IMG/VR virus record: IMGVR_UViG_3300019776_000339 | Coordinates: 1 to 26,559 of that record | Reading direction: 5' to 3' (one strand) | DNA: 26,559 bases | From: a virus | Shown here: one piece after another, positions 9,325 through 26,559 of the stretch | Layout: the number at the start of each line of letters is the position of its first letter | How positions within the stretch are numbered: position 1 is the stretch's first letter | Position numbers and translations under genes: made by a program | The notes under the pieces: model-generated | What the model saw: the letters and a program-made list of their open reading frames with translations, nothing else | The model's database searches: none | What the model was told of the DNA's origin: nothing

Positions 9325-10629
9325 CTATTTGATCCTTTCATAGAGTTTCCCCACACTGGCCCAGAGTTCCTCAATAAGAACCTGCTGTTCCTGGATCGCG
9401 TTGACCAAGACAGGAACAAGACTCTCGCCATTGTACTTAAGATTCTCCGAATCTTCGGCATTGATGATGACCGGCGAATCGCCTTCCAGTTTCAAAATGT
9501 CCTGCGCCTTGAAGCCATATCGCACTCGACCGTTTGTCTCGTCCGAATCGCGGGACTTGCGAAACTGAAACGCAACTGGCCTCAGTTTGTTGACGAACTC
9601 CAGACCGTGGGGAACACGTGCGAAGTTGATCTTGTCGCGGGCATCGGAAGTGACAGTCCATGCGACCTGCACATAGGCGTCCGTCACAGCAGCATGGCCC
9701 ATCACCACTCGATTATCCTGAGTTGTGACGTTGAACACGGGATCGTACACACCCGCAGCTGTTACAGGTGCAGCACCAAAATTGCCCGCTCCCGTGGTCA
9801 CATTTCGGAGCGCATCTGAACCAATCGCCGTGTTGTAATTACCGGTCGCGTTGTAAAGTGCTTGGTAACCTACTGCCGTGCTTCGCGTACCCGTGACGCT
9901 AGTGGACAGTGATTCGGTGCCTATTGCCGTGTTATTTGCGCCTGTGGTGTTGCTGACAAGTGTTCGATATCCGTTGGCGACATTGCCGTTACCTTGCGTG
10001 TTGGCAACAAGGCAATTTTGCCCAACAGCAACATTCTGATAACCCGTGCCGTTGTTCACCAGCGCATACCGTCCCACGGCAGTGTTCTCGTTGCCCGTGG
10101 TGTTGTTGGCAAGCGCCACAGATCCAACTGCTGTGTTTCGCGCACCCGTGGTGTTGAGGTTAAGTGCGCCGTAACCCAGGGCCGTGTTCTCGTCACCCGT
10201 GGTGTTGACGGGCAGTGCAATTGCGCCCACTGCCGTGTTTGTACTTACACCACCCGCACCACGCCCCACGGTGAGACCTTCCGCGACCAGTTTGCTCAGT
10301 ACGGCGGGGCCGAAGAATGAGACGACCGAGTCTGGCTCAAACTGAGGTAGAACCTCTATCTCCTGACGCAGCACATCGATCTGCTGCTGGAGTTCATTGA
10401 GGAATGACGATGGTGTGCTGGATACATCGTCGAATTCCTTGGCGATCTCCGAATCACTGGCGATCTGCGACGGGGGGCCAAGTTGCAGATCGTCCAGCGT
10501 CACGTTGTTGGTGCCGCCGCCTGTCAGTTGGAACAGGTTGAAGAAGAACCGATACCACTCGCGGGTAATGGTGCCGGTGGTCAGATCGACCAGGGGCACA
10601 CGCGGTGGTGTGATCGTGGTGTTAGACAT
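9325..10629 (-). CDS. Fibre protein with YadA-like repeats and peptidase S74 chaperone
   Basis: The 434-residue product has three parts. Residues 1-125 begin with a VPLVDLTTGTITREWYRFFF attachment-like region and a short coiled coil near 76-93. Residues about 126-285 hold eight to nine repeats of roughly 16 residues with the pattern NTTGxxNTAxGxxAL, like the left-handed beta-roll of YadA head domains. Residues about 327-434 (TSDARDK, FVNKLRPVAFQF, YGFKAQDI, then a C-terminal coiled coil) form the intramolecular chaperone of endosialidases, peptidase S74. Ser328 and Asp329 correspond to the conserved self-cleavage residues, so the chaperone is probably released after trimer folding. The start overlaps the gp10-like gene by 8 bases. 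Confidence 0.85.
   Translation of the reverse strand: MSNTTITPPRVPLVDLTTGTITREWYRFFFNLFQLTGGGTNNVTLDDLQLGPPSQIASDSEIAKEFDDVSSTPSSFLNELQQQIDVLRQEIEVLPQFEPDSVVSFFGPAVLSKLVAEGLTVGRGAGGVSTNTAVGAIALPVNTTGDENTALGYGALNLNTTGARNTAVGSVALANNTTGNENTAVGRYALVNNGTGYQNVAVGQNCLVANTQGNGNVANGYRTLVSNTTGANNTAIGTESLSTSVTGTRSTAVGYQALYNATGNYNTAIGSDALRNVTTGAGNFGAAPVTAAGVYDPVFNVTTQDNRVVMGHAAVTDAYVQVAWTVTSDARDKINFARVPHGLEFVNKLRPVAFQFRKSRDSDETNGRVRYGFKAQDILKLEGDSPVIINAEDSENLKYNGESLVPVLVNAIQEQQVLIEELWASVGKLYERIK
9775..10254 (-). repeat. In-frame degenerate tandem repeats of about 48 bases (fibre shaft)
   Basis: The DNA encoding residues 126-285 of the S74 fibre consists of eight to nine imperfect units of about 48-51 bases, each coding for an NTTG...NTA.G..AL-like segment. 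One unit (residues 195-212) is the most diverged. Units similar at DNA level allow expansion or contraction of the shaft by recombination. Confidence 0.8.
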
Positions 10630-22831: not shown

Positions 22832-22965
22832 GCGCCATGCGTCAATGCGCCATGCGTCATGACGCAGCGCTGCGTTCATGCGCCATGCGTCCAGGAATGC
22901 GCGGAGCGTATTGACGCCATGCGTTTAGGGTAGTTTTACGCCATGCGTCAATGCGCCATGCGTCA
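22832..22965 (+). repeat. GCGCCATGCGTCA direct repeats (iteron-like cluster)
   Basis: The exact 27-base block at 22833-22859 recurs at 22939-22965. Each block is a tandem pair of CGCCATGCGTCA-like units about 15 bases apart. Further related units lie at 22881-22891 (ending GTCC) and 22915-22926 (ending GTTT). At 22862-22875 there is a perfect 14-base palindrome, ACGCAGCGCTGCGT. GCGTCA or its complement TGACGC occurs exactly six times within 134 bases. Such iterated sites suggest binding by a replication initiator or transcription regulator. Confidence 0.75.
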
Positions 22966-23019
22966 CCAGGGAAAACGCATCGCGCACCAGGAATCACGCG
23001 CTGCGGCCGGAATCACGCG
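22964..23019 (+). repeat. Second small direct-repeat pair
   Basis: CACCAGG occurs at 22964-22970 and 22985-22991. GGAATCACGCG occurs exactly at 22990-23000 and 23009-23019, 19 bases apart. These pairs follow the GCGTCA block directly and may be part of the same protein-binding array. Confidence 0.5.
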
Positions 23020-23192
23020 ATGCGGACGAAAATGCTCACGCTGAGCGTATTTAGACGATGTCTGCATCTCTGTGCCTTTGCAGGGAGACACAGAAAATAC
23101 TATATATGCAATGCGTTTTTTCTTTCGACTCCCCCCATTTCTGGTGCAGTGATGCAGAGATGCAAACTAACGCATTGCATCGTCCATCTTTT
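23020..23192. other. AT-rich non-coding stretch before the early promoter
   Basis: No gene is supported. A 5-bp hairpin GCTCA-CGC-TGAGC lies at about 23034-23046. Around 23090-23110 the sequence is AT-rich with TATATA. Rightward, TTGCAG, 17 bases and TATATA form a moderate promoter candidate. Leftward, TCGAAA, 16 bases and TATATA could fire toward terS. A T-rich run follows near 23115. The AT-rich stretch next to repeats would suit strand opening at an origin, which is inference. Confidence 0.35.
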
Positions 23193-23244
23193 TAACGCAT
23201 GGCGTCAAAAAGTGCTTGACGCATGAAAACGCGGAGCGTATGAT
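23193..23244 (+). promoter_or_regulatory. Sigma70-type early promoter with GCGTCA operator
   Basis: TTGACG at 23216-23221 and TATGAT at 23239-23244 are separated by exactly 17 bases, close to the ideal sigma70 promoter. The expected transcription start is near 23251. The -35 box overlaps a TGACGC half-site (23217-23222). An inverted pair, TTAACGC-ATG-GCGTCAA (23193-23208), lies just upstream. A regulator that binds GCGTCA would therefore overlap the polymerase site. The promoter reads into the small genes from 23295. Confidence 0.75.
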
Positions 23245-23252
23245 TCTATCCA

Positions 23253-23275
23253 TGCCGATGCGCGTCGCATCGGCA
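23253..23275 (+). promoter_or_regulatory. 5'-leader hairpin of the early transcript
   Basis: TGCCGATGCG and CGCATCGGCA form a perfect 10-bp stem around a CGT loop. It begins about two bases after the predicted transcription start, so it would cap the 5' end of the mRNA, with the GAGAGAGG ribosome binding site of the first gene downstream. The GATGCG/CGCATC core recurs in other leaders of this operon. Confidence 0.65.
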
Positions 23276-23294
23276 CCAACAGAGAGAGGCAAAC

Positions 23295-23510
23295 ATGATT
23301 CAGGCAACAGCGATGTGGCAGGACTGCGAAATCGGATATGGTGAAAGTGAATCCATCATCGGCGCGATCGACGAAGCAATTTCCGATCTGTTCGACCATC
23401 CGATGTACCCTCAGAACGAAATTGAAGTTCTCGTCCGACAGGGCGAGAATGCCCCGAGGTTCCGCCTTACCTGGAACTCAGCCGTGAGCATTGCGACCTA
23501 CGGCATCTGA
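23295..23510 (+). CDS. First early gene, hypothetical acidic protein (71 aa)
   Basis: ATG 23295 follows GAGAGAGG by a suitable distance and lies about 44 bases from the predicted transcription start. The 71-residue product (MIQATAMWQDCEIGYGESES, then IIGAIDEAISDLFDHPMYPQ and EIEVLVRQGENAPRFRLTW) is acidic and looks like a small alpha/beta fold. I do not recognise a family. As the first gene after the strong promoter it is expected to be made early and in quantity, and such proteins often act on host functions, but nothing here shows a target. Confidence 0.72.
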   Translation: MIQATAMWQDCEIGYGESESIIGAIDEAISDLFDHPMYPQNEIEVLVRQGENAPRFRLTWNSAVSIATYGI

Positions 23511-23521
23511 TCTTCCAGCCC

Positions 23522-23548
23522 GATGCGCACTCGTCATGAGTGCGCATC
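23522..23548 (+). repeat. Intergenic hairpin, GATGCG/CGCATC type
   Basis: GATGCGCACTC and GAGTGCGCATC form a perfect 11-bp stem around GTCAT. It lies 11 bases after the stop of the first early gene and 30 bases before the ribosome binding site of the next. No U-tract follows, so a simple terminator is unlikely. Confidence 0.7.
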
Positions 23549-23590
23549 AGGATGGAACGTCACCATCGAACCACTAACGGAGAGAACATC

Positions 23591-23731
23591 ATGGAACAAA
23601 AGAGAGACAAAAGCCGCGAAATCAGACGCGCAAGATCAATCGCCAAGAGTTTGGGTCACCGAGTCGCAGCGTATTATCTCAAGCGCCGTGGGTGGTCATG
23701 CGAAGCGGCCCTAGTGATTATCTTTGGGTGA
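23591..23731 (+). CDS. Small basic hypothetical protein (46 aa)
   Basis: The start ATG 23591 has GGAGAG at 23579-23584, six bases upstream. A longer frame from 23540 overlaps the hairpin and is not preferred. The product is strongly basic at its N-terminus (MEQKRDKSREIRRARSIAKS) and ends YLKRRGWSCEAALVIIFG. The GWS.EAAL..I.G ending resembles short proteins in several betaproteobacterial phages. A nucleic-acid-binding role is possible from charge alone. Confidence 0.65.
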   Translation: MEQKRDKSREIRRARSIAKSLGHRVAAYYLKRRGWSCEAALVIIFG

Positions 23732-23739
23732 TCACAATC

Positions 23740-24402
23740 ATGACCACCTATCATCTAACCCCGAAATCGTCCAATCAGAAAACTGGACCGATTCCGGTCT
23801 CTACATCGAGCAAAGCCACGTGTCCCGTGGATTGTGGCATGCGCAGTGAATGCTACGCCGATACCGGTCCTCTCGCGATTCATTGGTCTGCGGTATCCAC
23901 TGGTTCCCGTGGAACGGACATCGGAACCTTCTGCCATGCCATCTCATCTCTCCCGGATGGTCAACTGTGGCGCCACAATCAAGCTGGTGATCTACCTGGC
24001 AACGGTCACACTGTTGACCCTGTCGCGCTGGGTCAGATTGTCCACGCGAATCTCGGCAGGCGTGGATTCACTTATTCCCACTATCGGGACGCGGAATCCC
24101 TGCGATGGATCCGTCACGCAAACGAATGGGGATTCAGGATCAATCTGAGCGCGAACAGTCTAGAGGATGCCGACACTCTCGCGGCTAGCGGCGCCGGTCC
24201 TGTGGTTTGCGTGCTACCGAGTACGCAAACGAAAAACACATTCACGCCAGCAGGCCGGGCAGTGATTGTCTGTCCGGCTACCATTCGCGACGATGTCTCG
24301 TGCGCGACATGCCAGATATGTCAACGTGAGCGTGCCTTCATCGTCGGGTTTCCGGCGCATGGAACGAAAAAACGAGTCATCGATATAAAACTTGCGCGTT
24401 AG
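23740..24402 (+). CDS. DUF7227-like Cys-rich protein of unknown function (220 aa)
   Basis: The start ATG 23740 (MTTYHLTPKSSNQKTG) lies 8 bases after the previous stop. The longer upstream frame adds sequence from the previous gene. I recognise the family pattern KTGPIPVSTSSKATCP, then CYADTGPLAIHWSAVS, GQLWRHNQAGDLPG, RRGFTYSHYR, FRINLSANSLEDAD, PVVCVLP and IVGFPAHG. It is widespread in phages and known as DUF7227. Cys28, Cys32 and Cys38 cluster at the N-terminus and Cys178, Cys188, Cys191 and Cys194 at the C-terminus, suggesting a metal or iron-sulphur site, as proposed for the superficially similar Gp37/Gp68 phage proteins. No radical-SAM CxxxCxxC motif is present. Substrate and reaction are unknown. 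Confidence 0.75.
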   Translation: MTTYHLTPKSSNQKTGPIPVSTSSKATCPVDCGMRSECYADTGPLAIHWSAVSTGSRGTDIGTFCHAISSLPDGQLWRHNQAGDLPGNGHTVDPVALGQIVHANLGRRGFTYSHYRDAESLRWIRHANEWGFRINLSANSLEDADTLAASGAGPVVCVLPSTQTKNTFTPAGRAVIVCPATIRDDVSCATCQICQRERAFIVGFPAHGTKKRVIDIKLAR

Positions 24403-24416
24403 GGTCTCCCCATCTC

Positions 24417-24464
24417 GCAGCATGCTCCTCGTGAGCATGCTGCCGGATGCGCGATCCTCGCATC
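24417..24464 (+). repeat. Double intergenic hairpin
   Basis: The first hairpin has an 11-bp perfect stem (GCAGCATGCTC / GAGCATGCTGC) around CTCGT at 24417-24443. The second is GATGCG-N7-CGCATC at 24446-24464. The ribosome binding site GGAGAG of the next gene follows. The second hairpin and the following AATCAAC match the leader at 25436-25461. Confidence 0.7.
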
Positions 24465-24493
24465 AATCAACCCACTAACTGGAGAGAAGAACC

Positions 24494-24721
24494 ATGCAAT
24501 ATCGAATCACTGAAGTACAGAATGCACAATCACATCGCGGTCGATTGGCCCATGTCGTCATCAATGCATCGAGTCTCACGGCAGCGAAGCGTTACGCTTC
24601 GCGTTCTCGAATGTTCAAGGGAACGGTTCTCATCGTGCGCAGTGAGAATGGTGCGCCTTTGTCGTCATGGGAAGATGGTCGCTGGATTGATGCGCGGTCC
24701 TATTTGCCGGAGTACGCGTGA
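24494..24721 (+). CDS. Hypothetical protein (75 aa)
   Basis: ATG 24494 follows GGAGAGAAG within good range. The 75-residue product (MQYRITEVQNAQSHRGRLAH, then VVINASSLTAAKRYASRSRM and FKGTVLIVRSENGAPLSSWE) alternates strands and a basic helix (SLTAAKRYASRSRM), like a small alpha/beta domain. The ending GRWIDARSYLPEYA is acidic/aromatic. I do not recognise a family. It stands alone between two hairpin leaders. Confidence 0.68.
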   Translation: MQYRITEVQNAQSHRGRLAHVVINASSLTAAKRYASRSRMFKGTVLIVRSENGAPLSSWEDGRWIDARSYLPEYA

Positions 24722-24756
24722 CCCCGATCCCCGCGCCAACAAGCTGGCCCTTCCAT

Positions 24757-24815
24757 CGAGTGCCGAGCGGATCCGGCACTCGCTGGATCCTGATTCCACC
24801 GCCGGTCAGACCGGC
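24757..24815 (+). repeat. Double intergenic hairpin before the clamp gene
   Basis: CGAGTGCCG and CGGCACTCG form a 9-bp stem around an 8-base loop at 24757-24782. GCCGGTC-A-GACCGGC at 24801-24815 is a second inverted repeat, followed by ACCGTTTTG. The T run is only four long, so it is a poor terminator. This leader lacks the GATGCG arms but keeps the layout of two hairpins, then GAGAGAG. Confidence 0.6.
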
Positions 24816-24837
24816 ACCGTTTTGAGAGAGAACCAAA

Positions 24838-25395
24838 ATGATCACGATTCCCACAACCACCATCAAGGCTCTGCTCACTGTCGCCGCTAAGGGCGACGTG
24901 CGCTACTACCTCAACGGCATCTGCATCGACGTCCGCGAGTCGGATGTCACCCTGGTTGCGACCGATGGGACGATCCTTCTTGCCGTCCCCGTGGTTCCCA
25001 TCGAACCGATGCCCATCGGGCAGTACATCCTTGACCGCGCCCATGCCGAGATGATCAAGGGCAAGGAATGCACCATCACCATCGAGGGTGGAGTAATCAA
25101 AGTATCTAGGAAAGATGGCGTTCTCCCGTTCACGCCAGTTGATGGAAAGTTCCCCGATTGGCGCTCGGTCATGCCTGCGCAGGCATCTGGCGAGATAGCG
25201 CAGTTCAACTGCGAACTTGTCGGCAGGATGGGCAAGGCATTCGATCTTTTGGACGCTCCGTTCCCCACGATTTACCATAACGGTCAGAAAGGGGCGAGGG
25301 TCACTAGCGACTGCCAAGCCATCGGAATCATCATGCCGATGACTCGTTGTGACCGCGAGTTCCTGCCCCTGCCTGCCTGGGCGCTGAAGGTCTGA
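24838..25395 (+). CDS. Shortened DnaN-like (beta) sliding clamp
   Basis: The 185-residue product aligns by motif with domains 2 and 3 of the bacterial DNA polymerase III beta clamp (about 366 residues). Residues 17-49 (AKGDVRYYLNGICIDV, then LVATDGTILLA) correspond to the QDVRYYLNG...VATDGHRLA region of domain 2. Residues 103-113 (GKFPDWRSVMP) match the GRFPDYRRVLP end of that domain. AQFNCELVGRMGKAFDLL and the IIMPM element (Met166-Pro167-Met168) recall the domain 3 helix and the C-terminal VVMPM that lines the partner-binding pocket. Domain 1 is absent. It may encircle DNA as a trimer or modulate the host clamp; both are inference. ATG 24838 follows GAGAGAG. Confidence 0.78.
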   Translation: MITIPTTTIKALLTVAAKGDVRYYLNGICIDVRESDVTLVATDGTILLAVPVVPIEPMPIGQYILDRAHAEMIKGKECTITIEGGVIKVSRKDGVLPFTPVDGKFPDWRSVMPAQASGEIAQFNCELVGRMGKAFDLLDAPFPTIYHNGQKGARVTSDCQAIGIIMPMTRCDREFLPLPAWALKV

Positions 25396-25405
25396 GTTTC
25401 CGTAG

Positions 25406-25454
25406 CCTACTAGATCCTGTCGCAGGGTCTAGTGGGATGCGTGACTCGCGCATC
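25406..25454 (+). repeat. Double intergenic hairpin before the DUF7249-like gene
   Basis: The first stem of 14 bp (CCTACTAGATCCTG / CAGGGTCTAGTGGG, with two G-U pairs) encloses TCG at 25406-25436. The second is GATGCG-N7-CGCATC at 25436-25454, followed by AATTAACC and GGAGAG. Arms and spacing of the second hairpin match 24446-24464. Confidence 0.7.
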
Positions 25455-25477: not shown

Positions 25478-25711
25478 ATGGACGATCGTACTTACAATGG
25501 GTGGACCAATTACGCCACGTGGTTAGTGTACACGTGGTTTTGCCTGGAATCCCGTGCCGATGTTGAATCGGCACGCGAGGTGATCGAAGAAGCCGAGGAC
25601 TCCATGCCCGACTTCATGCGCGCTTTTCTCTGCACTGACGAAATCAACTGGGATGAACTCATGGGTCACTTCGAGGATGACGAGGACGCGGAATGCGAGG
25701 TGTCGGAATGA
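25478..25711 (+). CDS. DUF7249-like acidic protein (77 aa)
   Basis: ATG 25478 follows TGGAGAG. The product begins MDDRTYNGWTNYATWLVYTW, a YNGWTN.ATWLV..WF pattern I recognise from a widespread small phage protein (DUF7249-like). The rest is strongly acidic, ending in FEDDEDAECEVSE. The charge and size would suit a DNA mimic or a protein-binding modulator, but that is speculation. The stop overlaps the next start in an ATGA junction. Confidence 0.75.
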   Translation: MDDRTYNGWTNYATWLVYTWFCLESRADVESAREVIEEAEDSMPDFMRAFLCTDEINWDELMGHFEDDEDAECEVSE

Positions 25712-25917: not shown

Positions 25918-26069
25918 AACGGCATCGCGAAACTCACTATGAGCAGTACCGACGGCGGGTGCGTGATCCGCTGTCTTATGACGGCTGGTTGGACGTCGTT
26001 AGTGACGCTGCCGACGAGGCCGAGATGACAATCGATGAATTCTTGGAGATGCAAAATGATGACGATTGA
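25914..26069 (+). CDS. Small hypothetical protein (51 aa)
   Basis: ATG 25914 overlaps the previous stop as ATGA, with AGAGAGGGA about 9 bases upstream, and the frame ends with TGA 26067-26069. The 51-residue product has a basic N-terminus (MKRHRETHYEQYRRRVRDPL) and an acidic C-terminus (DEAEMTIDEFLEMQNDDD). The compact overlap on both sides is the main support, and no function can be inferred. Confidence 0.65.
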   Translation: MKRHRETHYEQYRRRVRDPLSYDGWLDVVSDAADEAEMTIDEFLEMQNDDD

Positions 26070-26559
26070 CGAAGAACAGAGGGCCGCAATTGCGGAAAAA
26101 TTGGCAGGGATGACTTTGCCCGTGGGCCTGGGTGACGAACACAATGCATGCTCTATCGCCGCGATCAACTTAGCCCTGTCGGGCAAATTGACCGACGAAA
26201 TCCCCGCATGCATGTCCGAAGTCATCGGCGAATGGATCATCGTGACACAGGACTTCATGCCCGCCGAGATGCGAAACTCGCGGAAGTGGAAGGCATTGTT
26301 GCCCCTCGCTGCCGGGACGGGGCGGGATCATGAGCGGCAGCGATTAGCCCTCATCCTTGATTGGATGTGGGGAACTGTCTTGCCTGCCGTGCAGCCGCTC
26401 GCAGATGATCGCGGATTCGGACCGGAGTGGCAGCGCATGATCGACAAGCGTAGCGTTGACGCGGCGGATGCGGCGGCGTGGGCGGCGTGGGCGGCGTGGG
26501 CGGCAAGGGCGGCGACGGCGGCGAGGGCGGCGGAGGCGTGGGCGGCGGAGGCGGCGGAG
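26056..26559 (+). CDS. Phage protein with Ala/Trp repeat tail, 3' end missing
   Basis: The frame starts at ATG 26056 (a second ATG follows at 26059), with GGAG at 26045-26048, and is open to the window edge (168 codons). It overlaps the previous gene by 14 bases. The first 130 residues include DEIPACMSEVIGEWIIVTQD, FMPAEMRNSRKWKALLPLAA, GTGRDHERQRLALILDWMWG and TVLPAVQPLADDRGFGPEWQ, a pattern I recognise from hypothetical phage proteins (DCMS.VI..W......MP...RN...WK.LLP.AAGTGRD.E..R...ILDWMW..VLP..QP.AD..GF...W). From about residue 136 it becomes an AAW/AAR/AAE repeat. Function unknown. Confidence 0.75.
   Translation, partial: MMTIDEEQRAAIAEKLAGMTLPVGLGDEHNACSIAAINLALSGKLTDEIPACMSEVIGEWIIVTQDFMPAEMRNSRKWKALLPLAAGTGRDHERQRLALILDWMWGTVLPAVQPLADDRGFGPEWQRMIDKRSVDAADAAAWAAWAAWAARAATAARAAEAWAAEAAE
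26461..26559 (+). repeat. Nine-base tandem coding repeat (GCGGCGTGG-like)
   Basis: Units of GCG GCG followed by TGG, AGG, ACG or GAG repeat in frame to the edge of the window, coding for Ala-Ala-X with X = Trp, Arg, Thr or Glu. Three consecutive exact GCGGCGTGG units are visible near 26472-26498. The length is likely to vary by slippage. Confidence 0.85.

Follow-up and report, generated by a model that had tools for sequence, protein, structure and literature searches.

Hairpins at Early Gene Junctions

What the hairpins that recur before successive early genes are, and what they might do, is the question raised by the IMG/VR virus record IMGVR_UViG_3300019776_000339, a tailed-phage fragment of 26,559 bases that was analysed in full (the window). 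The fragment encodes a portal of the P22 type and a relative of the phage DSL-LC05 terminase. Its structural genes run leftward, and an early block runs rightward from about position 23,250, behind a promoter-like TTGACG-17-TATGAT sequence. The initial annotation had pointed to strong inverted repeats in the leaders of five early genes, and inverted repeats are indeed present at each of the five places. The hairpins are a real, covarying, cis-acting structured RNA found between early genes in a wide range of uncultured tailed phages, and the element is apparently undescribed so far.

The five leaders do not form a single recurrent set, as had been proposed. An abutting-hairpin search revealed a common tandem plan in three of them (at 23519, 24414, and 25407), in which a first hairpin (HP1) of 10–14 base pairs (bp) is followed, with a spacer of zero, by a second hairpin (HP2) of 5–7 bp; the leaders at 23253 and 24752 are atypical. 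The HP2 at 23551–23567 had been overlooked earlier. Four leaders had also been described as sharing GATGCG...CGCATC arms. A record-wide search for GATGCG-N3-17-CGCATC found exactly four occurrences in the 26,559 bases, all within these leaders, and none for a reversed-pattern control. The count was right, but the pairs are not equivalent in role, as those at 23257 and 23522 form the arms of a first or only hairpin, and those at 24446 and 25436 form the second, smaller one. GATGCG...CGCATC is not the conserved feature. No class copy was found in the late operon, which had been described as free of these hairpins.

Occurrence in Relatives and Covariation

Relatives were collected through the sliding-clamp protein of the early block, which retrieved 47 viral loci (80 loci in the clamp alignment), and through DUF7249 proteins, which supplied two further sets of 80 loci each. 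The same plan, written in other letters, was found ahead of the clamp gene, ahead of the gene after the clamp, and ahead of DUF7249 genes, with HP2 stems such as GATGC/GCATC, GGTGC/GCACC, GGTAC/GTACC, GGCGC/GTGCC, GACGC/GCGTC, and GGCGT/ACGCC. A covariance model (R1) was built from 19 leaders that had been picked for having hairpins; the three window copies are among them. RNAalifold folded the 19 leaders into adjoining consensus helices of 13 and 5 bp with no spacer. In this set, 92.6% of cells were paired, compared to 31–46% in slid controls, and every covariation measure lay above all shuffles (0/500).

Because the 19 leaders had been picked for their hairpins, two less biased tests were made. 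The model detected about 50 further copies in uncultured phage contigs that had not been used in building it. In an alignment of 50 copies, 94.1% of cells paired and 16 of the 18 pairs showed double compensatory changes; since the model itself guided this alignment, which also contains three matches on the reverse strand, the slid controls (31–47%) are the fairer yardstick. When clamp-flanking leaders were picked by the neighbouring protein only, a tandem pair was present in 27 of 116, compared to 0.2 expected from shuffles, and in 0 of 58 coding controls. DUF7249 leaders picked by protein only contained the pair in 8 of 109 cases (0.3 expected). Over 994 kb searched, the model matches below E=1e-3 all lay on the gene strand, with more copies in DUF7249 loci and up to three copies per record, and 730 kb of unrelated viral DNA gave no match at E<1e-3 and none better than 0.012. 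One locus (L047, 27 bits), which lacks a clear HP2 and lies 53 nucleotides (nt) from a stop codon, was counted as doubtful. Phage DSL-LC05 (71% terminase identity) and two Manatee Spring phages (67% and 49%) had no model match in any of the three, searches of bacterial genomes with clamp relatives, whose whole-genome runs scored only 150 candidates per genome, gave no match below E=0.3, and a DUF7249 search of phage records returned no match.

The suggestion that structure is kept while sequence changes is thus strongly supported by covariation in relatives. Among 58 distinct rows, G-U pairs far outnumbered A-C mismatches (151 versus 25). This excess, a bias not expected of a DNA palindrome, indicates that the sense RNA folds rather than the DNA. 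U-G was the commonest pair type at three positions, two of them basal and one internal. HP1 is often capped by a stable tetraloop, and HP2 mostly consists of 5 bp closed by a loop of 5–7 nt. The basal pair of HP2 is G-C in 46 of 50 copies and its closing pair is C-G in 41 of 43, and 5-nt loops begin mostly with a purine. The loop and stem letters of HP2 otherwise vary widely, even inside one genome.

Placement between Translation Units

In 45 of 47 copies, the distance from the upstream stop codon to the first pair of HP1 is 6–13 nt, with a median of 8. HP2 ends 13–35 nt before the next start codon, with an unstructured linker and then the ribosome-binding site downstream. The same 47-copy survey found no U-tract after HP2, where the longest U run is 4 and most are 1–2, and a terminator scan found none at the window leaders. 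When a stop codon occupies the A site, the ribosome covers about 6–13 nt of the mRNA downstream. Given the stop-to-HP1 distance, HP1 would lie at the entry point of the mRNA into the terminating ribosome.

Within the window, the element occupies breaks between translation units, and the later genes, from 25693 on, overlap adjacent ones. Where a near-consensus promoter directly precedes the clamp gene, the clamp leader is without the element, and the gene after the clamp has it. Past the clamp stop codon, some hairpin occurs within 30 nt in 44 of 60 relatives, compared to 1.9 expected; these comprise 24 tandem hairpins, 12 single hairpins, and 8 single hairpins with a U-rich tail. The junction position is kept while the type of hairpin changes, as would be expected of a barrier.

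Other repeats were seen around the clamp gene and before genes of the relatives. Three loci (L242, L244, and L245) carry, directly past the clamp stop codon, a second tandem type with an HP2 of TACGGGT/ACCCGTA placed 1 nt after HP1, which is unrelated in sequence to the main class. In the clamp leaders of L221, L223, L230, and L249, a terminator-like hairpin with a T-run lies immediately ahead of the clamp ribosome-binding site (AGGCCTTCGGGCCTTTTTTAAGGGG). Upstream of the clamp, the inverted repeats ATTGCCAAGATTGCCAAT / ATTGGCAATCTTGGCAAT are iterated in L007, L009, L015, and L018 and may be operators or origin repeats. In L041 (150–6538), a repeated GGCATTGAC...GGGTCAATGCC-CCTATAAT hairpin before several genes resembles a promoter that incorporates a palindrome.

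Possible Functions

The reading that we tentatively favour, with confidence a little short of even, is that the element acts as an intercistronic barrier or insulator, keeping early cistrons apart and shielding the mRNA on either side. HP1 and HP2, placed end to end without a spacer, could stack coaxially into one rod, which would compact the untranslated gap between two cistrons. Such a rod may block 3′-to-5′ exonucleases at the 3′ end of the upstream cistron, and perhaps also Rho loading, and the downstream cistron would gain a hairpin-protected 5′ side. Beyond these effects on stability, the two translation units would be kept apart, so that each early gene could initiate on its own. The barrier fits best because the element is anchored to stop codons, lies at internal junctions, keeps its shape with free sequence, and is substituted by other hairpins at the same junction. 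There are precedents for hairpins at such positions: repetitive extragenic palindromic (REP) hairpins act on ribosomes when they lie no more than 15 nt from a stop codon, stable REP hairpins block exoribonucleases (PMC12306157), and a terminator a few bp past a gene is repressed by ribosomes (PMC4824070).

Several points weigh against the barrier. By itself it leaves the conserved HP2 and the zero spacer unexplained, and the preference for G-C at the HP2 base and for a purine at the loop start could hint at a binding partner. The promoter comparison rests largely on one clade, and all relatives are uncultured. In addition, the ribosome-binding sites of the window are only moderately open in the predicted folds (0.38–0.76 unpaired). 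Because a simple barrier does not explain the HP2 geometry and the zero spacer, a binding or a ribosome-sensing role was retained as a candidate. One unlikely though credible possibility is that the stacked twin hairpin represents a new family of phage cis-acting RNA that reads the ribosome finishing the upstream gene, and that translation remodels it or a dedicated factor binds it; each early gene on the polycistronic phage message would then have its own post-transcriptional control. A serious minority candidate is a recognition element acting in trans, in which a protein of the phage or the host would bind HP2 or the whole rod and control translation or, in the manner of nut- or put-like antitermination, elongation. 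The conserved geometry and terminal pairs of HP2, which has the size of lambda boxB, its mostly purine-first 5-nt loops, and the presence of several copies per operon in a single orientation would suit such a protein, but the remaining letters of HP2 are highly variable, the element is absent just past the promoter, where nut or put sites would be expected, and the copies recur at internal junctions anchored to stop codons.

The position of the hairpins between successive early genes, and the 15–19 bp to which the two adjoining helices sum, are also compatible with RNase processing, one of the earlier proposals, in which an RNase III-type endonuclease would split the early transcript into messages of one gene each, as between the early genes of T7. 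Typical RNase III substrates are longer than HP1 by itself, HP2 has just 5–7 bp, and we consider such sites rather unlikely, although processing and a barrier could coexist. A REP-like brake, in which HP1 would stall the ribosome completing the upstream gene and cut its yield, is quite unlikely: the distance to the stop codon falls inside the 15-nt limit reported for REP in Escherichia coli, but the upstream genes are varied, and a brake would need neither HP2 nor the zero spacer. DNA-level palindromes, either a mobile intergenic repeat or protein-binding operators, had been proposed earlier and are now very improbable. There are multiple copies, and identity between copies within a genome is only slightly higher than between genomes (49% versus 43%); most copies, however, are closer to some copy of another phage than to those of their own genome, and no arm sequence is shared. 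The asymmetry between G-U and A-C, the double compensatory changes, the gene-strand-only orientation, and the variable stem sequence likewise count against a DNA-level role, binding sites included. Intrinsic or attenuating terminators between the genes are scarcely credible, since the tandem class lacks a U-tract and the terminator scan found none at the leaders, even though a hairpin with a U-rich tail occupies the junction past the clamp stop in eight relatives. A translational bypass like that of T4 gene 60 was set aside because the downstream genes have their own start codons and ribosome-binding sites.

Comparison with Known Systems

Both HK022 put, which consists of two adjacent stem-loops, and lambda boxB, a hairpin of 5 bp with a 5-nt loop, occur in early phage transcripts. 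The put and nut sites lie in the promoter-proximal leader, whereas the present element recurs between genes inside the operon and is missing from clamp leaders close to a promoter. The intergenic RNase III sites of T7 are hairpins between successive early phage genes, but they are longer and irregular. The translational operator of T4 gene 43 is a hairpin about 40 nt upstream of the start of a replication gene (PMC3014915); it serves one gene and has conserved loop letters bound by the polymerase, whereas the element precedes many genes and has variable loops. The put and nut sites, the T7 RNase III sites, and the gene 43 operator each match only parts of the plan of the element.

The nearest functional analogue is the group of REP sequences near stop codons in E. 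coli, which likewise place a stable intergenic hairpin within 15 nt of the upstream stop, a range that includes the 45 of 47 copies noted above. REP sequences share a sequence consensus and have many chromosomal copies, whereas the element shows 43% between-genome identity and free stem sequence. It also differs in its two abutting hairpins, its fixed position between a stop codon and the next ribosome-binding site, and its occurrence in phage early operons. Because REP is defined by a sequence consensus, the element is not a member of it. The start-associated sequences (SAS) and extended SAS (ESAS) of Cluster K mycobacteriophages occur in several copies before non-structural genes, in one orientation, with inverted repeats before the ribosome-binding site; the paper describing them favoured DNA binding, having found RNA pairing poorly supported (PMC3203893). 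SAS/ESAS are conserved in sequence, whereas in the element the pairs covary and the letters vary. Reading by eye against that definition (PMC3203893), the 13-bp SAS GGGATAGGAGCCC was not found at the ribosome-binding sites of the window leaders. No Rfam family matched within the window at the gathering score, and a permissive search of the leaders and relatives gave only sub-threshold matches. No description of the element was found in the open-access literature, which is weak evidence of novelty.

Covarying structured RNAs repeated before several genes of one phage operon have rarely been described. The present element, defined by a model, a placement rule, and a set of relatives, is ready for reporter testing, which would show how phages that crowd their genes onto a single message nevertheless keep them separate or tune them. 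The element further illustrates that what is readily taken for noise or for DNA repeats, namely intergenic hairpins of uncultured phages, can form a family on which selection acts.

The Early Operon of the Window

The features of the early block are collected in Table 1. Transcription is predicted by the consensus scan to start from the candidate promoter at about 23251–23252, immediately ahead of the first hairpin, which would form the 5′ end of the early transcript. The ribosome-binding sites read GAGAG or GGAGAG. Against Pfam DNA_pol3_beta_2 the clamp scored 24.6 bits, slightly under the cut-off of 27. The second hairpin of the clamp leader is unrelated to the HP2 of the class. The pairing of a copy 3-type leader with a DUF7249 gene was also found in L168, L188, L394, L406, and L456.

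Table 1. Hairpins, candidate promoter, and genes of the early block (window coordinates).
Feature	Position	Strand	Evidence
Sigma-70-type candidate promoter of the early operon, TTGACG-17-TATGAT	23216..23244	+	Consensus scan, 10/12 matches
Single hairpin, 10 bp, 3-nt loop; promoter-proximal, atypical	23253..23275	+	Model R1 only E=0.17
Open reading frame (ORF) of 71 amino acids (aa), without family match	23295..23510	+	Stop 23508-23510
Copy 1 HP1, first pair 9 nt past stop 23508-23510	23520..23550	+	Model R1 E=1.5e-12
Copy 1 HP2, GATGG-AACGTCA-CCATC, zero spacer	23551..23567	+	Tandem-hairpin search, model R1
46-aa ORF, led by copy 1	23591..23731	+	
DUF7227 gene, 9 nt after 46-aa ORF	23741-24402	+	Pfam DUF7227 2.8e-82
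Copy 2 HP1, first pair 12 nt past stop	24415..24445	+	Model R1 E=3.3e-11
Copy 2 HP2, GATGCG-CGATCCT-CGCATC, then AATCAACCCACTAACTGGAGAG	24446..24464	+	
75-aa ORF, led by copy 2	24494..24721	+	
Atypical clamp leader, 14-bp hairpin, one mismatch, 30 nt past stop	24752..24787	+	Not found by model R1
Clamp leader second hairpin, GCCGGT-CAG-ACCGGC, not adjoining first	24801..24815	+	Sequence, fold
Sliding-clamp (DNA polymerase III beta-like) gene	24838..25395	+	PHROG 3007 3.2e-27, PHROG 947 9.5e-12
Copy 3 HP1, first pair 12 nt past clamp stop	25408..25435	+	Model R1 E=1.4e-8
Copy 3 HP2, GATGCG-TGACTCG-CGCATC, then AATTAACCAATGGAGAG	25436..25454	+	
DUF7249-like gene, led by copy 3	25478..25711	+	DUF7249 24.5 bits, slightly under cut-off 27

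Further candidates were rejected in the course of the analysis. GATGCG-N7-CGCATCAAT, tried as a conserved sequence, was found in 84 viral stretches in chance contexts only, with no model match below E=0.01. A match to the sR7 snoRNA at 23513 was under the Rfam cut-off, on a near-perfect palindrome, and was taken as chance. An alternative long hairpin, which pairs the stop-codon region with the 5′ arm of HP2, appeared in folds of the window leaders but showed no excess over shuffles among 39 leaders.

Further repeats were observed elsewhere in the window. Direct repeats are dense at 22833–22965 and 22892–23241, between the divergent operons; they consist of CGCCATGCGTCAATG, in five copies of 27 nt, and of CGCGGAGCGTAT, which recurs at the −10 region of the early promoter; these repeats could be repressor operators or origin iterons. 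At the left end (442–1019), two neighbouring plus-strand ORFs, each with MNREDIxRMAQ, are tandem paralogues. A tail-fibre-like protein encoded on the minus strand (9325–10629) has repeated NTAVGxxAL...NTTGxxN motifs. At 26035–26559, an ORF running to the contig edge closes with GGCGGC-type repeats that encode an Ala/Trp/Glu/Arg-rich run (AAWAAWAARAATAA...).

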